A stretch of 26,968 bases of DNA. Origin: a virus. Of the stretch, positions 8,992 to 24,674 are shown piece by piece. The stretch is from positions 1 through 26,968 of the IMG/VR virus record IMGVR_UViG_3300009604_001711. The stretch is one strand, 5' to 3'. The notes under the pieces were generated by a model, which saw nothing but the letters and a program-made list of their open reading frames with translations, was not told the DNA's origin and ran no database searches. Within the stretch, counting starts at the first letter, position 1; every line of letters begins with the position of its first letter. The translations under genes and the position numbers were made by a program.

Positions 8992-9032
8992 GTTTCCTAT
9001 TCCCCTTTCTATTATTTAATCCTTGTCAGCTT

Positions 9033-9078
9033 GTGTCCTTAGTTGTATATGTTGTGGCTCGTGTCCTTAGTTGTATAT
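9033..9078 (-). repeat. 18-bp leftward control element, tandem copies 1 and 2
   Basis: Two perfect copies of GTGTCCTTAGTTGTATAT (9033-9050 and 9061-9078, plus-strand reading) have a 28-bp period. On the transcribed strand this is ATATACAACTAAGGACAC. They sit between the terminator at 9202-9233 and the first gene (8991) of the next leftward block, like the third copy at 7919-7936. Promoter element or operator is inferred from position. Confidence 0.6.
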
Positions 9079-9168: not shown

Positions 9169-9201
9169 TCTAGTTTTTGGTATGTGCAAGGATAAACAAG
9201 A

Positions 9202-9233
9202 ACACAAGCCCGGAATTTTTGCCGGGCTTGTGT
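9202..9233 (-). terminator. Intrinsic terminator hairpin after gp88 block
   Basis: A perfect 12-bp GC-rich stem (ACACAAGCCCGG at 9202-9213 with 9222-9233) and an 8-nt loop lie 10 nt after the stop of the leftward gene ending at 9244. The downstream tract on the minus strand (TCTTGTTTATCC) is only moderately T-rich. It closes the 9244-10434 block. Confidence 0.75.
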
Positions 9234-9243
9234 CTTGTATGTC

Positions 9244-9636
9244 TTACTCTATGACGGCATAACAGCCGTCATTTCTCATGTGTACCTCTGATAGTGGAAA
9301 TTCAACGGGCGCATCAGTATCGGACCAGCGGAATTCCAAGTGTCCGAGTTTGGGATTAATAGAAAACTTCCTAAGAGTCGCGCCCGGACCCGGGCGTTTA
9401 TCGCTAGGCGTACCAATTAACCACGCGCAGACGCTACGATATGCCCCATTATATATAGCAATCAAGGCGGACTTTTGACAGTTTGCCGTGACGTTAGTTA
9501 GTACGATATCATCGGAATAACCCGAGACTACGCCACGCCCGACATTGCCTTTAACGTCACCATATGAGTATATCCATTTTGACCAGTCTCGTTTTGCCTC
9601 GTTTAGGTTTCTATGTGCATAAATTCGATTAGTCAT
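9244..9636 (-). CDS. Hypothetical partner of the gp88-like gene
   Basis: 130 aa. ATG 9636 directly follows the stop of the gp88-like gene, with GAGG 7 nt upstream. The protein alternates charged helix (NLNEAKRDWSKWIYSYGD) and beta-type segments (DDIVLTNVTANCQ, HLEFRWSDTD) and ends in CYAVIE. The VLTNVT segment followed by CAWLIG resembles short unannotated phage proteins. No catalytic motif is visible. Its arrangement with gp88 and the shared promoter and terminator suggest they work together. Confidence 0.65.
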   Translation of the reverse strand: MTNRIYAHRNLNEAKRDWSKWIYSYGDVKGNVGRGVVSGYSDDIVLTNVTANCQKSALIAIYNGAYRSVCAWLIGTPSDKRPGPGATLRKFSINPKLGHLEFRWSDTDAPVEFPLSEVHMRNDGCYAVIE

Positions 9637-10434
9637 CTATTGGCCTCGCTTTACTACAAATCCGGTCGTATCTTTCCGGGCTTTGCCCTTGGCATACAAG
9701 TGAACGACCACGCCCGCCGGATCAAGAAACCTTAGATCGTTTTCATCTCCACTCACTACCTCGACTTGATCAAGCCCGTAATTCTTGAATGAGGTATTGG
9801 CATGATAACGTGGAATAATAGCATTGTAGTATTCTGGGATCGGATCGGTTGGTTTGCTATCGAATACGACTGCTACCCGTCGACCGTTGATCAAGTTTTC
9901 AAGTACCTCGATATCATTGGACTCAGATCTTGAAAAGGTTAGATCGTAGTTACTTGGTAGCGATTCGGCCGGGCGCTTGTGGTATGGGGCTTTAGTGTAG
10001 TCCATGAATTGTATATTCGGGAATAATTCCATGATGTTATTTGCCCGATCATCTCCAATAATGACCGGGGTTTTTTCCCATAGAACATCACTAACTCCAT
10101 TAAGTCGTGCGACCGGTATCATGTCTCGCTTGTGGGCTTGACGTTCTAAGCCCATTAGTTCACGGATAAGCTTTTCCCAATAGGCCTCACGATCGCTCAT
10201 GAATAGAACGGTGCGATTAATCCGGGCTTGTTGGACCGGAGCGAAACGACCATGCCCGGCCGTGATTAGACAACCGTTAACACAACCATCAGAAGCCCAT
10301 GGGCACATATTTATTGGTCTGCCTAACGCCTCGGATGCTTGCCGCTCATGTGCTAGATATTGAATACCCGTAAGATATCCACGTTTGGACCCTTTAACCG
10401 TTTTTGGATCTTTCTCAATTCCTATCAAATCCAC
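9637..10434 (-). CDS. gp88 / DUF7227-like phage protein
   Basis: 265 aa from a GTG at 10434 (GGAG 8 nt upstream). It matches the pattern I know from mycobacteriophage-type 'gene product 88' proteins: KGSKRGYLTGIQYLA (14-28), a Cys cluster CPWASDGCVNGC (C44, C51, C55), then ITAGHGRF, ARINRT, VARLNGVSDVLWE (108-120), IQFMDYTK (141-148), LTFSRSESN (165-173), GDENDLRFLDP (229-239) and AKGKA (248-252). Short motifs at strand ends plus an early Cys triad look like a TIM-barrel enzyme, perhaps related to radical-SAM folds, though the spacing is C-x6-C-x3-C, not CxxxCxxC. Function unknown. 17 of its 20 Arg codons are CGN, against 5 of 12 in the capsid gene, suggesting separate acquisition. Confidence 0.8.
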   Translation of the reverse strand: MDLIGIEKDPKTVKGSKRGYLTGIQYLAHERQASEALGRPINMCPWASDGCVNGCLITAGHGRFAPVQQARINRTVLFMSDREAYWEKLIRELMGLERQAHKRDMIPVARLNGVSDVLWEKTPVIIGDDRANNIMELFPNIQFMDYTKAPYHKRPAESLPSNYDLTFSRSESNDIEVLENLINGRRVAVVFDSKPTDPIPEYYNAIIPRYHANTSFKNYGLDQVEVVSGDENDLRFLDPAGVVVHLYAKGKARKDTTGFVVKRGQ

Positions 10435-10464
10435 TATTCACACTCCATAACTAGACGTGAGACC

Positions 10465-10493
10465 ATTGTCTCAAATACGCATGCATATGTCAA
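10465..10493 (-). promoter_or_regulatory. Sigma70-like promoter for gp88 block
   Basis: On the minus strand, a perfect -35 TTGACA (10493-10488), a 17-bp spacer and GACAAT (10470-10465; 4 of 6 to TATAAT) give a start near 10458, 24 nt before the GTG of the gp88-like gene. A dyad TGAGAC-CATT-GTCTCA (10458-10473) covers the -10 and start point, a likely repressor site. Confidence 0.7.
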
Positions 10494-10627: not shown

Positions 10628-10647
10628 GGAGCTCCAATTGGAGCTCC
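10628..10647. repeat. 20-bp perfect palindrome
   Basis: GGAGCTCCAATTGGAGCTCC is fully self-complementary with no loop and is itself built of two GGAGCTCC palindromes around AATT. It lies in non-coding DNA between the divergent gene sets. A dimeric protein site or a recombination site is possible. No T-tract follows, so it is not a terminator. Confidence 0.7.
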
Positions 10648-11140: not shown

Positions 11141-11211
11141 CAGAATTTTTCCATTAAAGGCCTTGTTCTCCACTGTATGTTTTGTCCTGGTATAACACGG
11201 TTTGTTTTGTT

Positions 11212-11227
11212 ATATAACATGTTATAT
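11212..11227. promoter_or_regulatory. 16-bp palindromic operator-like site
   Basis: ATATAACATGTTATAT is a perfect palindrome ending 11 bp before the -35 of the rightward promoter. The same ATGTTATA core recurs downstream at 11282, 11294, 11341-11352 and 11356-11381, which argues for a family of binding sites. Confidence 0.6.
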
Positions 11228-11238
11228 CGGGGGAATTA

Positions 11239-11267
11239 TTGACATCTGATGGCTGTAAGTCTACTAT
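11239..11267 (+). promoter_or_regulatory. Rightward sigma70-like promoter
   Basis: A perfect -35 TTGACA (11239-11244), a 17-bp spacer and TACTAT (11262-11267) predict a start near 11274 and a 5' leader of about 190 nt before the terminase small subunit gene. Operator-like palindromes flank it on both sides. It is the best candidate for the promoter of the rightward packaging and structural genes. Confidence 0.65.
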
Positions 11268-11281
11268 GCCTGTGAAATGCA

Positions 11282-11303
11282 ATGTTATACGCGATGTTAT
11301 ACG
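11282..11303 (+). repeat. Two direct ATGTTATACG repeats
   Basis: ATGTTATACG occurs at 11282-11291 and 11294-11303, a 12-bp period, about 10-30 nt downstream of the predicted start of the rightward promoter. Same core as the palindromes around it; likely protein-binding half-sites. Confidence 0.55.
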
Positions 11304-11339
11304 GTAAAAACGTTACGGATGTAGTATTTCTAGGCGTAA

Positions 11340-11381
11340 TATAACATGTTATGCCATGTTATATAGCATGTTATATAACAT
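11340..11381. repeat. Cluster of ATGTTATA/TATAACAT half-sites
   Basis: Within 42 bp are the perfect palindromes ATAACATGTTAT (11341-11352) and ATGTTATATAACAT (11368-11381), plus a further ATGTTATA at 11356-11363. With the sites at 11191-11303 and 11408-11418 this makes about a dozen copies of the core in 230 bp. The array lies in the leader of the rightward transcript and could be an operator array or iterons. Confidence 0.6.
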
Positions 11382-11419
11382 AACACACAGGTATATATAA
11401 TACCTGTGTTATGTTATAT
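11373..11419. repeat. 20-bp-stem inverted repeat before terS
   Basis: Left arm 11373-11383 plus 11386-11394 pairs with right arm 11400-11419 over 20 bp, with one 2-nt bulge (11384-11385) and a 5-nt AT loop. The inner part is CACAGGTAT/ATACCTGTG. It is AT-rich with no U-tract, so it is not a normal terminator. As DNA it could be an operator or origin hairpin; as RNA it would sit 48 nt before the terS start. Confidence 0.65.
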
Positions 11420-11466
11420 CACATTTATAATGGTGATATAGGGAATGATATGGGAGGGATATATTA

Positions 11467-18483: not shown

Positions 18484-18840
18484 ATGGCTAACGGAAATAA
18501 TCCTTTCCTGGACTATTTATCAGGCGCAGGCGACTGGGGCAGCCTATTGTTGACCCAATTGCCACAGGCCGCGTATTACAGTTCTCCTGCCGGGACACAG
18601 TTTGGCGGGCAAAGCCCAAGGCAGGGACGTTACTTTCAGCAGGCATACCAGGATGTGTACAGCGACTACCTTGGTCAGATAGGCTCTGCCCTGAGAAGCG
18701 GACAAGAACAAGAACCCAGGTCCTTCCAGGAATTCCTTGAGACTGACCCGTGGACGGCACGGTACGGAAGACTTCCCCAGTATGAGCGCGGCGTAACACG
18801 CGCATACACTGATCCGAGAACGAGGTTTATCTTTTACTAA
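18484..18840 (+). CDS. Small conserved-looking hypothetical virion-region protein
   Basis: 118 aa. AAGGGAG lies 6 nt before the ATG. The centre (QSPRQGRYFQQAYQDVYSDY) and the end (FLETDPWTARYGRLPQYERGV then YTDPRTRFIFY) resemble small unnamed proteins I associate with uncultured phage structural modules. No enzymatic motif. Its stop shares the A with the next start (TAATG), so it is coupled to the 1944-aa protein and may help its folding or loading. Confidence 0.7.
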   Translation: MANGNNPFLDYLSGAGDWGSLLLTQLPQAAYYSSPAGTQFGGQSPRQGRYFQQAYQDVYSDYLGQIGSALRSGQEQEPRSFQEFLETDPWTARYGRLPQYERGVTRAYTDPRTRFIFY

Positions 18841-21800
18841 TGCCTTCTCAAGAAGAAATACAACGCCGCAGGGAGCGTAACGCGGAATGGGCCAGGCAGA
18901 GAGCGGCCAAAGCCACGCCTACTGGCGGGCTTGAACTTGGCCGTCGCGTCGTGGAGCCTGTATACAAGAAGGTTATAGAACCCTTGCTTATGTATCCCCA
19001 ACGCGCTGCCGGAGAAGTAGTTCAGCAGTTCGGGGAAACCCGTGAAGCTATCAGGGACCGTGGTGTTCTTGGTGGCATCGGTCACCTTGGACGGGAAACA
19101 TTAAGCACGGGGCTTGATGTAGCAGCAGACCTTACTCCCCTGCCCGAGTCGTGGGGGGAAAGGATGGACCCATCGGGTGAAACCGCTATGGGTGCAGAGG
19201 TGGAAAGGGCTAAGAGGCAGTTCGAGGCGGAGCAGGGGCGACGGCCTACGATGACGGAAGAGTACGACATCATGGCTACCATTCAGGACAGGGAGATGCC
19301 CTGGCTGACGGAGCGACAGAAAGTAGGACCCCTCGAGTTCTCAAACAGGATGTGGATCGAGGCTCCGACCGAGATAGCGTCGGCAGTAGGGGAGACGGCC
19401 TTGACGCTTGGTGTGGCTAGCGCGGGAAAACTGGGCGGTAAAGTACTCGGCAAGGTCGGACAACACGTCGCTGCGAAGTACGGCGCAGGAGAAGGGGCGA
19501 AGGCTACGACAGCCCGTGTAGCGGGCGGCGGTCTACAGCAAGTAGGCGGTGCGGTCGAGAAGGTACTGATGACCCCCAAGAAACTGGATGATCTGTTTGG
19601 CGTGATGGTGGCGAAGCCGTTAGGGTGGTTGTGGCAGGGTGGTGTAGCCAAGCCTGTCCTCTTTGGTGTAGGGGCCGTGAGTATCACAAAGGCACAGCTT
19701 AAAAATACTATTAACATATTCAGGAAGCGCGCTATTGAGGAAGGCGCTCCTGTGATGGAAGTGAATAAGAAGGCTCAGGACTTTTCACGGTCTGTGATTG
19801 ACCAGAATAAAGTAGAGAATATGAAACCAGGTCAGCAGTTACGGCTGTTTGATGATGAGATTGATACTGCCGCAGGACAGGCAAAGCTCATGAGTGAAGA
19901 GCCAGACCTGTCTGTCGGTACTGGGGGTAGGCCTGACGCAATGGAATCTCTTGCGCTACGCACAGCATCATTAACTCGCCTCGCAGAGAAATACCCTCTT
20001 CGCAGTGCCAGTGATCCTGCTATTATTCCGCAAGATATCTTGGGCAATATGTACAATGATGTTGACGCAATCGCGCGTTCAGCACAAGAAGGCATGGGCA
20101 TAGATGAGTGGTCTAAATTAAGCCCCGAAGCCAAGGTGTCCGAGGTCATGGATGGCGTTGGAGATATTAACCCACGAGATGGCTTAGAGGTTAACTATGA
20201 CATTGATCCGGGTAAGTTCGATGTACATGACATCATGGATGATATCGTGCATGACGTATTAGATACTCCGCAGTTCAAGGCTCCCCGTACACCTGTGGGG
20301 CCAGAGGTAGTTCCGCAGGATCGCGGTGGGTTCCATCATCCAGTGCATATGCTGAGCGTAGATTTCGCAAGTACATATACTGAACGAGGGCGGGATATTG
20401 TGCGGGGTTTATGGGATGACTATATACTCCCGCTAGAAAACAAGCTGAAAAGCAATATTCCTGAATCCTGGGGCAAGGCTCCGGTTGTCGGGGGCCTGTT
20501 CAGGAAACCAACACGCGTCATCACCCGTGCAGAGACACCGGAGGGACAGGCGGCTGCCAGGAGTGGACGCGACGTAGAACGTAAGTTGAATGATTTTAGT
20601 GATAAAGCTGATGAGGCCACCGAGGCTATGGCTAATAATGCGCGTGGCGATATAGCGTTTATGCTTGCCAAAATGGTAGACCAGGGTGTTATCAGGTTTA
20701 ACTCTGGAACAGCCAAGGTTATGAATGCCGCCCACGATGCGGATGATGCGGCAGAGATTATTACTGCAAGCGGTAGCTTGATAGAAGATATCCTTGAAGG
20801 TGCAGGGCGTGAAGGACAGGGCAACTACGTCTTCAGCGATGCCGTGCTAGAGGGGTCTGGTATGACCTTCAGGGGCAACACCCTGGTCAGCGAAGGGTAT
20901 CAGGGCGTTAGATCCAAAAATGCGAGGGGGGAGACTGTGGATGCTAACCTGCTCCCCGGCTTTGGTGATGTAGCGGAACGGCTTCCGCTATATGAGCAGC
21001 AGCTCAAGTCTGTCAAGGTACAGATCGGACAGGAGGTACGCGATGCGTATTCTCTGATGCAGGACATCACCGAATACACAGCTCGCATGGAGAACACACT
21101 TGTGGATATGGGTGTCAATATGCGAGGTCCATTACCTAAAGTGGCAGGCAAGGCGCAGCAGGGCGTTGCGAGAGGTGTGATGTACGGGGAAGGCGCACAC
21201 TACTTTCCACGCAATGCTTCTGGCGCTGTCGAGATAAACCCCGCTACGGGCAAAGCCGAGCTTGTGCTGAATGAGAAGCAGGCTCCGACGGAACTTACAT
21301 TTAACCCAGAGGGTGGTGGCAGGTGGGGAGTGCCTGCTATTAAGGGCAGGGTAGCCCTGTCTCAGGCTGAAGGCATGACAAGGGGTGAATGGTATGCCCA
21401 CCCCGCCGATGCGGTAGCAGACTATATCAAGTTCGTTGGGGATAAGAAGCGTAACGATGCTATTGGAGATTTCATAGTTCGGTATTCACAGGCGAACAAG
21501 GTGGAGTCAGGTACGGTTAAGCAGCTTCTCAAAAACTCCGATGAGTTCCAGAAGTTCGAGATGAACCTGGAGAAGGTACGCAACAAGATACGCAACATCA
21601 AGAATCGCCAGAAGCGCGCTACTGGCATGGGTCAGACGCGCCTGATAATATCCGCAGACGATGTTATGAAGGACATGAGAAAAGAACTACGCTTAACGCC
21701 CCTCACTAAGTTCCAGGGAACGGCAGAGGGTGTTGAAGAATACTTCCAGTACATGGATAAGAAGTTCGCGGAATGGCACAAAAAGGTCAAGAGTTTAGGG

Positions 21801-24674
21801 GGCCGTCAGAGCAAGAACAAAGAAGAGATGGAGCAGGTCTTAAAATTACTGGACAAGGCAAAGGCCAATTATGATATTGCGAAGAAGGATCTGTTGCGCG
21901 GTAAGGCAACAATGTCCGGTATGGGGTTAGGGTTGGAGGGAGTATATTTCCCCCATGCCTTCAGGGACGCTATCCTGAATGCGTCCGCGGCAGCAGAGAA
22001 ACGCCGACAACTACCCGGAGGGGGTCTCGTTGCGATTAACTCGCTTCTGCGTATGTACGGTGCAACGGGAGACATGAGCGCCATCGGCATACAGGGCAGC
22101 GCTGCGCTTATCAACGAAGCAGCGATGGGAACAAGAGCGACGAGGCTGGTTCCGGGGATTGGTCAGTTGGGCAAAGATGTCCGAGGAACACAGGAGCTGA
22201 AGATTAACCGTCAAGGGGATTCATGGAAGGCCTTTAAGTCAAGCCTACAGGCGTGGACGGACAAAGGCCCGGATATCGTTGGTGAGTACTTTTACATTGC
22301 CCGTCGCACAGCTATTAATAACGGGACACTCACCCCGGACGAATGGGCAAGTGCGGGTCTGGGTATCCTTGCCAACGCACCGGACTTTTATGTTAGTCGC
22401 AACAGACATATATTGACTAAGTTTGACCGTATGTTTACACAGTACGGCAACGTACTCAGGCACGGTCTGGCAGATGCAGAGTTACAACTTTTGATGGCTC
22501 AGACAGGCAAGACGGCACGACAACTTCTGGACAGCGGAGATGCTGCCAGGATAGCAGGGTTTACCAACGTATTTACAGGAGTGGGGCAGCGCAGGTGGGG
22601 TGGCAATTCCGCACAGTTCCTGCTCTTTGCCCCGCGGTTTTTCCACGCAAGGATGAAGGTGGCTTCGGATGCACTGAAGGGGGTACTGCCGGGAACGAAC
22701 AAGACGCTGGAGCGTCGCATCGCAGCCAAGCACATGACTCGCTATATGGGCTTTGCCTCGTTTCTTACCTTCGGCATTAATGAACTCAACGGTGAAGAGA
22801 CGGATATCAATCCGTTGATACAAAATCCCTCAACAGGTAAATGGCACTTTAACCCGAACTTCATGCGTATACACGCAGGTTCGTTGGATGTCAGCCTGTT
22901 TGGTCCCTTTGATTCCTTGCTGAGAATTTTTAGTTCATTGCCGCTGATGGCACTCAATCGCAAACACGGCGGTGAGATATTGCGGGACTTGCGGAGTAAT
23001 GTTAGCGCCCCGGTAAGCAGCCTTGGCCTCGATATTATTACTGGCTACAATTCCATAGGCGAGCGCACAAGGCCGCAGGACGAGGGGTTTATTGAAGGTG
23101 TGTTTAGCCCGGAGATGATGAATACGTTGTTGGAACACGCACTGCCGTTTTCATGGAACGATGTCTTCTTGGCCGATCCCGGTAAGCAAACCCTAGGTGG
23201 TCGGTTCAGCGAGGGCTTCCGAGAGATTGGCGAGGGGGATATCAAGGAAGGTGTCACGGAAACAGTCACTGCCGCAGCACAGTTTGGTTTCGGCATACTG
23301 GGTACTAAGAGTGCATACGAGAGTGTTAGTGAAACACTAAACAAGGCGTATGCGGACATACTGGAACTTGGCCCCGATGACCCGAGGCTACAAGAAGCCT
23401 TTGGGGTAACAGGCAAGAGCGATGCCAGGATGACGCAGGGCGAACTGAACGAGATATGGGCGAGTATGGGCAAGGACTGGTGGCACAAAATCGTCAACGT
23501 GGATGACGGCTTTGATATAAGCCTGTCGTTTGCGGCTATTGGTTCCGAGAAGACACCGACGTGGGACCAGGTAGCCAGTGATATACGCAAGAACATACAG
23601 CGGTCAGTGCGTGAAGGTAAATTCACGGAGATTATGACAGCAGAGGAACTGATCACACTTGAGAACCGCGTGAAGGAACGAATGGAGCAGAGTGCCACGG
23701 AATATTCTCGGTACGCTGTGGAGCGGGATGAGATCATAGCCGATGGGTTTACAAAGCTGCAAAAGGCAGAAGCGGACTTTCTGGAGAGTGGAGCTAAAGA
23801 CCTTGGGAAGTTTATGAAAGGTATGTCAGACATCCGCAAGGCGACAGCGTCAACCCTGCGAGCCTTAACGGGTCCTCATGGTACCTTTGAGGACATAGGG
23901 GAAGAACTATTCAAGTTCAGCCGTGACACAGCACTGGGCAACCTGTCTACCTTTGACAGGGATGTCTTTGACAGCGCACAGTCATGGTATTACACCCTGC
24001 TATACCCCGGTAAGGATGAAAAGGGGCCGGACGGCAAACTTCTTCGGGGGCCTGACAACAAGCCTCTTACTACAATTGTTACAGACGGTGGTTCGGTGGA
24101 CTGGGATCTGCGCGAGCAACGCCTCGAGATGTGGGAAGATGTGATGAAAAAGCAATTCCCTGCCCTGTCCGATACCAAGATAAAGAGTTACCGGAGAAGG
24201 CTGGAAGAACACCAGAAGCGTGAGTCTCCGCCAATCACAGGCATGATCCTGGACTTACAGGATGCCATCGCTGAGTCAGGGTACTACGATGTGCGTAAGA
24301 AAGGGGTAGAGTCATGGCTGTCCCGGTATGCGCCCGGTACAACGGCACAGGGCATGGAGATATACAAAGAATGGGATGCTTCAGATGCAACCATGAGGGC
24401 TACCCTGGAGAACAAGCATAGGTGGCTGGGTAATTTGCGTAGTGCAATGGATGTGTGGAGAGGGCCATTCTTCAGGAAGCAACCACATATTGATGCCATG
24501 CTGATGGTGCTGTCTACACGGAATACTCAGCCCAAAACCCCTGCCGGGCAAACAGTGTGGTATATCATGGAGCGGAACCGTCGCAACGTGAAGCCTATCA
24601 AGGACTGGACGGGCTTCCTGTCTGCCGTGCGTAACATAGAGGTCGATCCTGAAGCGATCAAGCGTTACCAGTAA
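18840..24674 (+). CDS. Giant 1944-aa probable internal virion protein
   Basis: One uninterrupted frame of 5.8 kb, TAATG-coupled to the gene before. The N-terminus is basic and helical (EEIQRRRERNAEWARQRAAK). Ala/Gly-rich hydrophobic stretches lie near 177-210 and 260-285. Charged helices, probably coiled coil, lie near 895-930 and 985-1020. A segment near 1255-1365 (FLLFAPRFFHARMKVASDAL then RYMGFASFLTFGIN, ending DVSLFGPFDSLLRI) resembles the LPD38-type module of very large polyvalent or virion proteins. No lysozyme, protease or polymerase motif was found by eye. Size, hydrophobic patches and place in the structural operon suggest a protein packaged and ejected with DNA, but neither this nor the LPD38 link is proven. 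Confidence 0.75.
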   Translation: MPSQEEIQRRRERNAEWARQRAAKATPTGGLELGRRVVEPVYKKVIEPLLMYPQRAAGEVVQQFGETREAIRDRGVLGGIGHLGRETLSTGLDVAADLTPLPESWGERMDPSGETAMGAEVERAKRQFEAEQGRRPTMTEEYDIMATIQDREMPWLTERQKVGPLEFSNRMWIEAPTEIASAVGETALTLGVASAGKLGGKVLGKVGQHVAAKYGAGEGAKATTARVAGGGLQQVGGAVEKVLMTPKKLDDLFGVMVAKPLGWLWQGGVAKPVLFGVGAVSITKAQLKNTINIFRKRAIEEGAPVMEVNKKAQDFSRSVIDQNKVENMKPGQQLRLFDDEIDTAAGQAKLMSEEPDLSVGTGGRPDAMESLALRTASLTRLAEKYPLRSASDPAIIPQDILGNMYNDVDAIARSAQEGMGIDEWSKLSPEAKVSEVMDGVGDINPRDGLEVNYDIDPGKFDVHDIMDDIVHDVLDTPQFKAPRTPVGPEVVPQDRGGFHHPVHMLSVDFASTYTERGRDIVRGLWDDYILPLENKLKSNIPESWGKAPVVGGLFRKPTRVITRAETPEGQAAARSGRDVERKLNDFSDKADEATEAMANNARGDIAFMLAKMVDQGVIRFNSGTAKVMNAAHDADDAAEIITASGSLIEDILEGAGREGQGNYVFSDAVLEGSGMTFRGNTLVSEGYQGVRSKNARGETVDANLLPGFGDVAERLPLYEQQLKSVKVQIGQEVRDAYSLMQDITEYTARMENTLVDMGVNMRGPLPKVAGKAQQGVARGVMYGEGAHYFPRNASGAVEINPATGKAELVLNEKQAPTELTFNPEGGGRWGVPAIKGRVALSQAEGMTRGEWYAHPADAVADYIKFVGDKKRNDAIGDFIVRYSQANKVESGTVKQLLKNSDEFQKFEMNLEKVRNKIRNIKNRQKRATGMGQTRLIISADDVMKDMRKELRLTPLTKFQGTAEGVEEYFQYMDKKFAEWHKKVKSLGGRQSKNKEEMEQVLKLLDKAKANYDIAKKDLLRGKATMSGMGLGLEGVYFPHAFRDAILNASAAAEKRRQLPGGGLVAINSLLRMYGATGDMSAIGIQGSAALINEAAMGTRATRLVPGIGQLGKDVRGTQELKINRQGDSWKAFKSSLQAWTDKGPDIVGEYFYIARRTAINNGTLTPDEWASAGLGILANAPDFYVSRNRHILTKFDRMFTQYGNVLRHGLADAELQLLMAQTGKTARQLLDSGDAARIAGFTNVFTGVGQRRWGGNSAQFLLFAPRFFHARMKVASDALKGVLPGTNKTLERRIAAKHMTRYMGFASFLTFGINELNGEETDINPLIQNPSTGKWHFNPNFMRIHAGSLDVSLFGPFDSLLRIFSSLPLMALNRKHGGEILRDLRSNVSAPVSSLGLDIITGYNSIGERTRPQDEGFIEGVFSPEMMNTLLEHALPFSWNDVFLADPGKQTLGGRFSEGFREIGEGDIKEGVTETVTAAAQFGFGILGTKSAYESVSETLNKAYADILELGPDDPRLQEAFGVTGKSDARMTQGELNEIWASMGKDWWHKIVNVDDGFDISLSFAAIGSEKTPTWDQVASDIRKNIQRSVREGKFTEIMTAEELITLENRVKERMEQSATEYSRYAVERDEIIADGFTKLQKAEADFLESGAKDLGKFMKGMSDIRKATASTLRALTGPHGTFEDIGEELFKFSRDTALGNLSTFDRDVFDSAQSWYYTLLYPGKDEKGPDGKLLRGPDNKPLTTIVTDGGSVDWDLREQRLEMWEDVMKKQFPALSDTKIKSYRRRLEEHQKRESPPITGMILDLQDAIAESGYYDVRKKGVESWLSRYAPGTTAQGMEIYKEWDASDATMRATLENKHRWLGNLRSAMDVWRGPFFRKQPHIDAMLMVLSTRNTQPKTPAGQTVWYIMERNRRNVKPIKDWTGFLSAVRNIEVDPEAIKRYQ

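Follow-up and report, generated by a model that had tools for sequence, protein, structure and literature searches.

What are the two leftward genes that border the divergent control region of this phage: a separate accessory cassette or the ordinary beginning of a longer operon, and what might the larger of the two proteins do? The window, by which we mean the whole stretch of 26,968 bases analyzed here, belongs to an uncultured marine tailed phage; as a virus record in IMG/VR, it is not known to be complete. Genes on its left side, among them those for an exonuclease, a helicase-like protein and a PAPS-reductase-like protein, run leftward, and those on its right side (small and large terminase, candidate portal, capsid) run rightward. 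The gp88/gp82 pair is the first leftward unit and adjoins the 1-kb divergent control region. Both open reading frames of the two-gene unit described in the initial annotation, at 9244-9636 and 9637-10434, were borne out, and their junction has no gap: the TAG stop codon of gp88 directly abuts the ATG of gp82 on the same strand. Elsewhere in the window, the PAPS-reductase-like protein (phrog_424; 498-1301) is a further candidate nucleic-acid or sulfur-transfer enzyme, and positions 18840-24674 encode one 1944-aa protein between the short genes of the structural region and the capsid genes.

The upstream gene, gp88 (9637-10434, minus strand), has a GTG start and a GGAG ribosome site and encodes a 265-aa protein with a predicted Fe-S/radical-SAM-like barrel. 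Profile matches confirmed its membership in the GP88 family: residues 31-262 match the Pfam model GP88 (PF17338) with an E-value of 1.7e-38 and 133.2 bits, against a curated cutoff of 24.4 bits, and the match to phrog_1617 has an E-value of 2.6e-59. It is a full-length member, like gene 88 of mycobacteriophage Miramae in its cysteines and motifs, although only 33% identical to the mycobacteriophage form, and it has two extra loops (residues 126-135 and 207-224) that the main IMG/VR clade of the family does not have. Many phages of the ocean and of soil, as well as mycobacteriophages, encode a GP88 protein; among the carriers are phages of Pelagibacter, SAR116, rhizobia and mycobacteria, and jumbo phages. 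The domain also occurs inside bigger phage proteins, such as a 445-aa protein in Tunturi_5 (L085:2392-3729) and proteins of about 1000-1200 aa represented in BFVD (A0A6J5RS77, A0A6J5PHI3 and A0A6J5SA55); these large proteins are possibly multi-domain and virion-delivered. Nothing relevant on GP88 function was found in the literature that could be searched, and for that literature the earlier description of a family without known function stands; the present analysis nevertheless allows us to propose a fold and a likely chemistry.

The downstream gene (9244-9636, minus strand) starts directly after the gp88 stop and encodes a 130-aa protein of the mycobacteriophage L5 gp82 family. Its match to Phage_L5_gp82 (PF25735, phrog_586) spans the whole length of the protein (residues 3-127) and is marginal (E-value of 4.7e-7, 30.2 bits, curated cutoff of 27 bits). 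In phage HMO-2011, gp82 is likewise found downstream of gp88, but it is only about 24% identical to the window protein. With the window protein as query, tblastn and pattern searches of phages and IMG/VR yielded no relative; the gp82 family was reached via HMO-2011.

The initial annotation credited this unit with its own promoter, operator and terminator. Best supported is the terminator, an intrinsic-terminator-like hairpin (9201-9234, minus strand) with a 12-13 bp stem and an 8-nt loop that closes the cassette. Its perfect 12-bp stem corresponds to 9202-9233, and its RNA fold is far more stable than in shuffled sequences (-28.8 versus -11.1 +/- 2.7 kcal/mol; z = -6.57); the T tail is weak (CTTGTTTATC). 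In the interval from this hairpin to the next leftward gene, a direct repeat of 22 nt, GCTTGTGTCCTTAGTTGTATAT, occurs in two copies 28 nt apart (9029-9078); it is a possible operator of the main leftward operon. Upstream of gp88, a promoter-like site (10465-10493, minus strand) reads TTGACA-17-GACAAT with a TG before the -10 element, and matches the consensus at 10 of 12 positions, with a perfect -35 element at 10493 and a 17-nt spacer. On the one hand, only 1.6% of 150-nt stretches drawn at random from the window reach this score (0.7% if a perfect -35 is required), and the nearest relative, L270, has a promoter-like TTTACT-17-AATAAT at the matching place. On the other hand, the 4-kb region shows no excess of such sites (8 observed versus 7.7 expected from shuffles), and TTGACA occurs 18 times in the whole window. 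A promoter of its own is plausible for the gp88 cassette. The proposed operator fared worse: the dyad TGAGAC-N4-GTCTCA, TGAGACAATGGTCTCA, at 10458-10473, which overlaps the -10 element, is at chance level, with 0.78 such dyads expected by chance in the 130-nt stretch examined and at least one present in 22% of random 150-nt stretches. A better candidate for an operator is the perfect 20-bp palindrome GGAGCTCCAATTGGAGCTCC (10628-10647) upstream of the promoter, the longest perfect palindrome in the window.

Further signals lie upstream of the small terminase gene, where positions 11207-11424 contain an array of ATGTTATATAACAT palindromes and a 10-bp hairpin, ACACAGGTATATATAATACCTGTGT. Both are retained in L270 (2596-2797), with paired base changes (ACACAGGTCTCTATAAGACCTGTGT), and the region upstream of the small terminase contains a C/G-run hairpin in L303 and L332. 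In its conservation, the region with the array and hairpin has the look of an operator, an origin or a packaging site. A rightward promoter-like sequence, TTGACA-17-TACTAT (11239-11267), has a counterpart in similar surroundings in L270 (TTGACA-17-TACCAT, 2627-2655).

Codon use sets the two genes apart. The counts given in the initial annotation were exact: 17 of the 20 arginine codons in gp88 are CGN and 3 are AGR, as compared to 5 CGN and 7 AGR in the capsid gene. The capsid gene is not a special comparison, because the remaining leftward genes (106 CGN to 92 AGR) and the rightward genes (172 to 143) are likewise mixed. The arginine bias of gp88 has Fisher p-values of 0.008 against the leftward and 0.009 against the rightward genes, for a single amino acid picked after the fact. 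A whole-codon, leave-one-out comparison with the other leftward genes gave the same picture: gp88 (z = -5.36) and gp82 (z = -4.82) are the two strongest outliers among 21 leftward genes, the next gene being at -3.13. The deviation thus survives a full count, and the codon use of the pair does not match that of the leftward genes.

These results bear on one alternative, namely that the pair is merely the first segment of an ordinary leftward early operon, is not regulated separately, and has only an incidental promoter signal. The chance-level dyad and the unremarkable regional number of promoter matches are as expected under such an arrangement, and in one relative, L303, other leftward genes precede gp88. 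However, a strong terminator separates gp82 from the next leftward gene, and gp88 and gp82 differ from the other leftward genes in codon use; we consider an ordinary operon rather unlikely.

An accessory cassette should also vary in its presence, and it does. Many relatives of this phage in IMG/VR share 80-100% of the large terminase, and the slot was scored wherever the sequence sufficed. The first leftward segment contains gp88 in L269, L270, L303/L304/L306, L315 and L332-L334, and gp88 is missing from the slot in L285, L291, L297, L322/L323, L336 and L341. Where it is missing, the slot is filled by a phrog_2554/DUF7227-like protein (L285, L291, L297, L322 and L336) or, in L341, by the antirestriction protein ArdC. 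The DUF7227-like slot proteins (e.g., L291:1788-2489, and those of L285, L297, L322 and L336) share an invariant pattern of CxxC...CYV, RxGxxGDP, YTH and CP...CxxCxLC. Like phage morons and T7-type early accessory genes such as ocr, the window cassette is early, variable, compositionally deviant and swapped with another gene, here ArdC; unlike in those systems, its promoter and function are putative.

The two genes do not vary together. We did not find gp82 in the gp88-bearing relatives L270, L303/L304/L306 and L332/L334, some of whose sequences end near gp88. In a tree of 96 GP88 sequences, the window gp88 groups with those of the gp82-less L270, L332 and L303 (support of 100/96), apart from the other gp82-adjacent copies. 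Since it is nested among gp82-less relatives, the simplest explanation is that gp82 joined gp88 separately here. Over the whole tree, the gp82-adjacent state needs three changes, and the starred branches force at least two. The arrangement recurs nevertheless: gp88 is upstream of gp82 also in HMO-2011 and its IMG/VR relatives, in L217/L220 and in L149, and also in mycobacteriophage Miramae and Stenotrophomonas phage RAS14, with 1-3 kb between the two genes. HMO-type loci were fetched by a gp82 query, and their share is inflated. In all cases in which the two genes are no more than 3 kb apart, including the window, gp88 precedes gp82 on one strand; in Limnohabitans phage DC31 they are 7 kb apart and in reverse order.

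Such constancy of order, together with the zero-gap junction and the more than one origin of the adjacency on the GP88 tree, is what a toxin-antitoxin or two-subunit pair, whose members need each other, might leave behind. Against it, 39 of 45 GP88 records have no gp82 match at an E-value of 0.01, the nearest relatives carry gp88 alone, and the gp82 family is found in 874 phage records as compared to 264 for gp88. An obligate pair of this kind is therefore very unlikely, and a toxin-antitoxin pair was dropped as the main reading because gp88 mostly occurs without gp82. The expectation that the pair moves as a fixed unit failed among the close gp88 carriers examined, and the co-occurrence of the two families held only in part: near relatives do not have gp82, whereas the gp88-gp82 order recurs in separate branches of the tree. 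We conclude that gp88/gp82 is best read as an accessory early cassette and not as a fixed two-gene unit. Of the moron proposed initially, the presence and absence in the slot, the foreign codon use and the terminator stand; the fixed pair and the operator do not.

What the main protein of the cassette may do is suggested by its conservation and predicted structure. Among 82 diverse homologs with 37-68% identity to the window gp88, the invariant residues are K11, C44, C51, C55, G60, R110, D116, D145, Y146, K148, Y163, S168, D233, L246 and K249. The three cysteines, spaced C-X6-9-C-X3-C, are also kept in distant phage copies. Two further motifs of the window protein are the turn R110-L-N-G-V-S-D116 and the strand M144-D-Y-T-K148. 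Structure prediction of each protein alone, suggested in the initial annotation, gave a confident AlphaFold2 model for gp88 (pLDDT 93.2, pTM 0.90) and a weaker, mostly beta model with one helix for gp82 (pLDDT 79.4, pTM 0.73), for which neither Foldseek nor VIA-align found a structural match in the PDB. In the gp88 model, the first barrel strand (20-24) is followed by the cysteine loop and helices, and then by strands at 106-110, 142-147, 163-168, 187-191, 224-228 and 243-247, with the R-L-N-G-x-S-D turn after the strand that follows the cysteine loop. As modeled, this order of elements fits the partial (beta/alpha)6 barrel that characterizes radical SAM enzymes, in which SAM is bound at a conserved turn after the second strand.

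Structural comparisons point the same way, each with a weak score. Searches of the GP88 and gp82 profiles against sequences of solved structures gave chance matches only, and Foldseek found no match of the gp88 model in the PDB below an E-value of 0.1. When the 1000 PDB candidates from Foldseek, originally topped mostly by sugar-enzyme barrels, were realigned with VIA-align, seven of the eight best entries (ranks 1-5, 7 and 8) were radical SAM enzymes: NifB (7bi7, Z = 6.2), QueE (5th5, 5.6), a viperin-like protein (9dfw, 5.3), TYW1 (6djt, 4.8), QueE (6nhl, 4.5), TYW1 (2yx0, 4.3) and chain C of Elp123 (8asw, 4.1), which is presumably Elp3. Even the best of these values, 6.2, is low, below the 7-8 typical of unmatched models. 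In BFVD, a separate library made up of viral models, the named matches after those to GP88 itself are weak (Foldseek E-values above 0.04); among them are a radical SAM protein from a Campylobacter phage, an Fe-S oxidoreductase of COG0535, QueE and DUF7227. The case for a radical-SAM-like protein is thus that two libraries agree in their ranking and that three cysteines are invariant. GP88 would resemble radical SAM enzymes, of which NifB, QueE, viperin and TYW1 are nearest, in its predicted barrel, in a cysteine loop after strand 1 and in a conserved turn after strand 2, but differs in its cysteine spacing, which is not the canonical CX3CX2C, in Z-scores of only 4-6 and in sequence profiles: no radical SAM profile in Pfam matched any of the 82 GP88 proteins at an E-value of 0.1, and none in NCBIfam matched the window gp88. 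For these reasons, the absent CX3CX2C motif and the absent profile matches, we do not place GP88 in any of the known radical SAM families, although its mode of action is probably similar to theirs.

The same features (non-canonical spacing, absent profile matches and low Z-scores) would also suit a GP88 that has retained the barrel with its cysteine loop, coordinates zinc or a structural Fe-S cluster without being a radical SAM enzyme, and serves as a binding protein, for instance by inhibiting a host enzyme; inhibitors are frequent among the early proteins of phages. We regard such a role as unlikely, given that the polar residues R110, D116, K148, D233 and K249 are strictly conserved too, which fits an active site, and that radical SAM proteins top both structural rankings. 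Two other families share a motif order with GP88: DUF5131 (Gp37/Gp68) and DUF7227/phrog_2554 have a cysteine cluster, a G-x-x-D turn and a YTK/LTK/YTH strand in the same order, and a MedDCM GP88 is annotated as Gp37/Gp68-like. Because hhalign comparisons of GP88 with phrog_2554 and DUF5131 were not significant (P = 0.12 for DUF5131, with a small alignment), we claim a resemblance of motifs only; PF07505 is absent from the window. The phrog_2554/DUF7227-like proteins of the slot probably form a further Fe-S barrel family, one that takes the place of gp88.

The genomic neighborhoods of GP88 suggest where such an enzyme might act. It is the first or nearly the first gene in HMO-2011, HTVC134P and Lo5R7ANS, and its neighbors in Sansa, HTVC134P, MedDCM-S42-C7 and Miramae include DNA methylases. 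No neighbor is universal among 96 GP88 loci; the commonest neighbor clusters, one with a terminase gene and one DUF932-like by eye, occur in 11 loci each, a C5-methylase-like gene lies within 4 kb in 9, and gp82 is a neighbor in 8, a count inflated by those loci that had been retrieved through gp82. From the early position, the methylase neighbors and the slot shared with ArdC, we infer a role in early takeover or counter-defense.

One cellular locus raises a more specific possibility. In a member of Hydrogenothermaceae (L357:374-7968), the gene order is NurA-like, HerA, DpdA, Cas4, GP88 and RlaP; DpdA (NF041059, E-value of 1.2e-105) inserts 7-deazaguanine into DNA, and GP88 is two genes downstream of it. 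This operon may be an undescribed DNA-modification or defense cluster; a DpdC-like fragment is found upstream of it. QueE, which is among the best structural matches of GP88, is itself a radical SAM enzyme of 7-deazaguanine synthesis. GP88 might then belong to a base-modification pathway, of 7-deazaguanine or a related base, that shields phage DNA from restriction; the C5-methylase-like neighbors and the ArdC protein in the L341 slot would agree with this, and 7-deazaguanines of phages are known to guard against restriction (PMC6884629). However, when DpdA was sought in 51 GP88-linked records, it was detected in this one cellular genome and not in the other 50, and 136 Aquificota genomes yielded one strong and one weak GP88 match, with no second strong one. 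As a single locus, the DpdA operon is a lead and not a pattern. We consider such a base-modification pathway decidedly unlikely.

Taken as a whole, the evidence leads us to hold, with evenly balanced confidence, that the locus is an accessory cassette of early genes and that its main product is a non-canonical radical-SAM-like enzyme, probably for counter-defense or takeover. The cassette sits in a swap slot beside the divergent control region, probably with a promoter and a terminator of its own. In the GP88 (beta/alpha) barrel, the three invariant cysteines, which follow closely on the first strand, would ligate a [4Fe-4S] cluster, and the site would be lined by the YDYTK strand and by the invariant R-L-N-G-T-S-D turn that comes after strand 2. 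The protein would act early; most likely, it would modify a nucleic acid or a nucleotide and thereby blunt host defense or aid takeover; gp82 would be a separately acquired partner, placed downstream of gp88 more than once. A bolder proposal, which we consider possible rather than probable, is that GP88 forms a new radical SAM family, with C-X6-9-C-X3-C as its non-canonical cluster loop, whose early-gene products chemically modify nucleic acid or nucleotides against host defense, with DUF7227-type proteins as functional stand-ins. What is new here is a radical-SAM-like predicted fold for a widespread phage family without an assigned function. The confident fold, the three invariant cysteines and a slot common to ArdC make the role of GP88 directly testable, through [4Fe-4S] and SAM binding and through phage protection.
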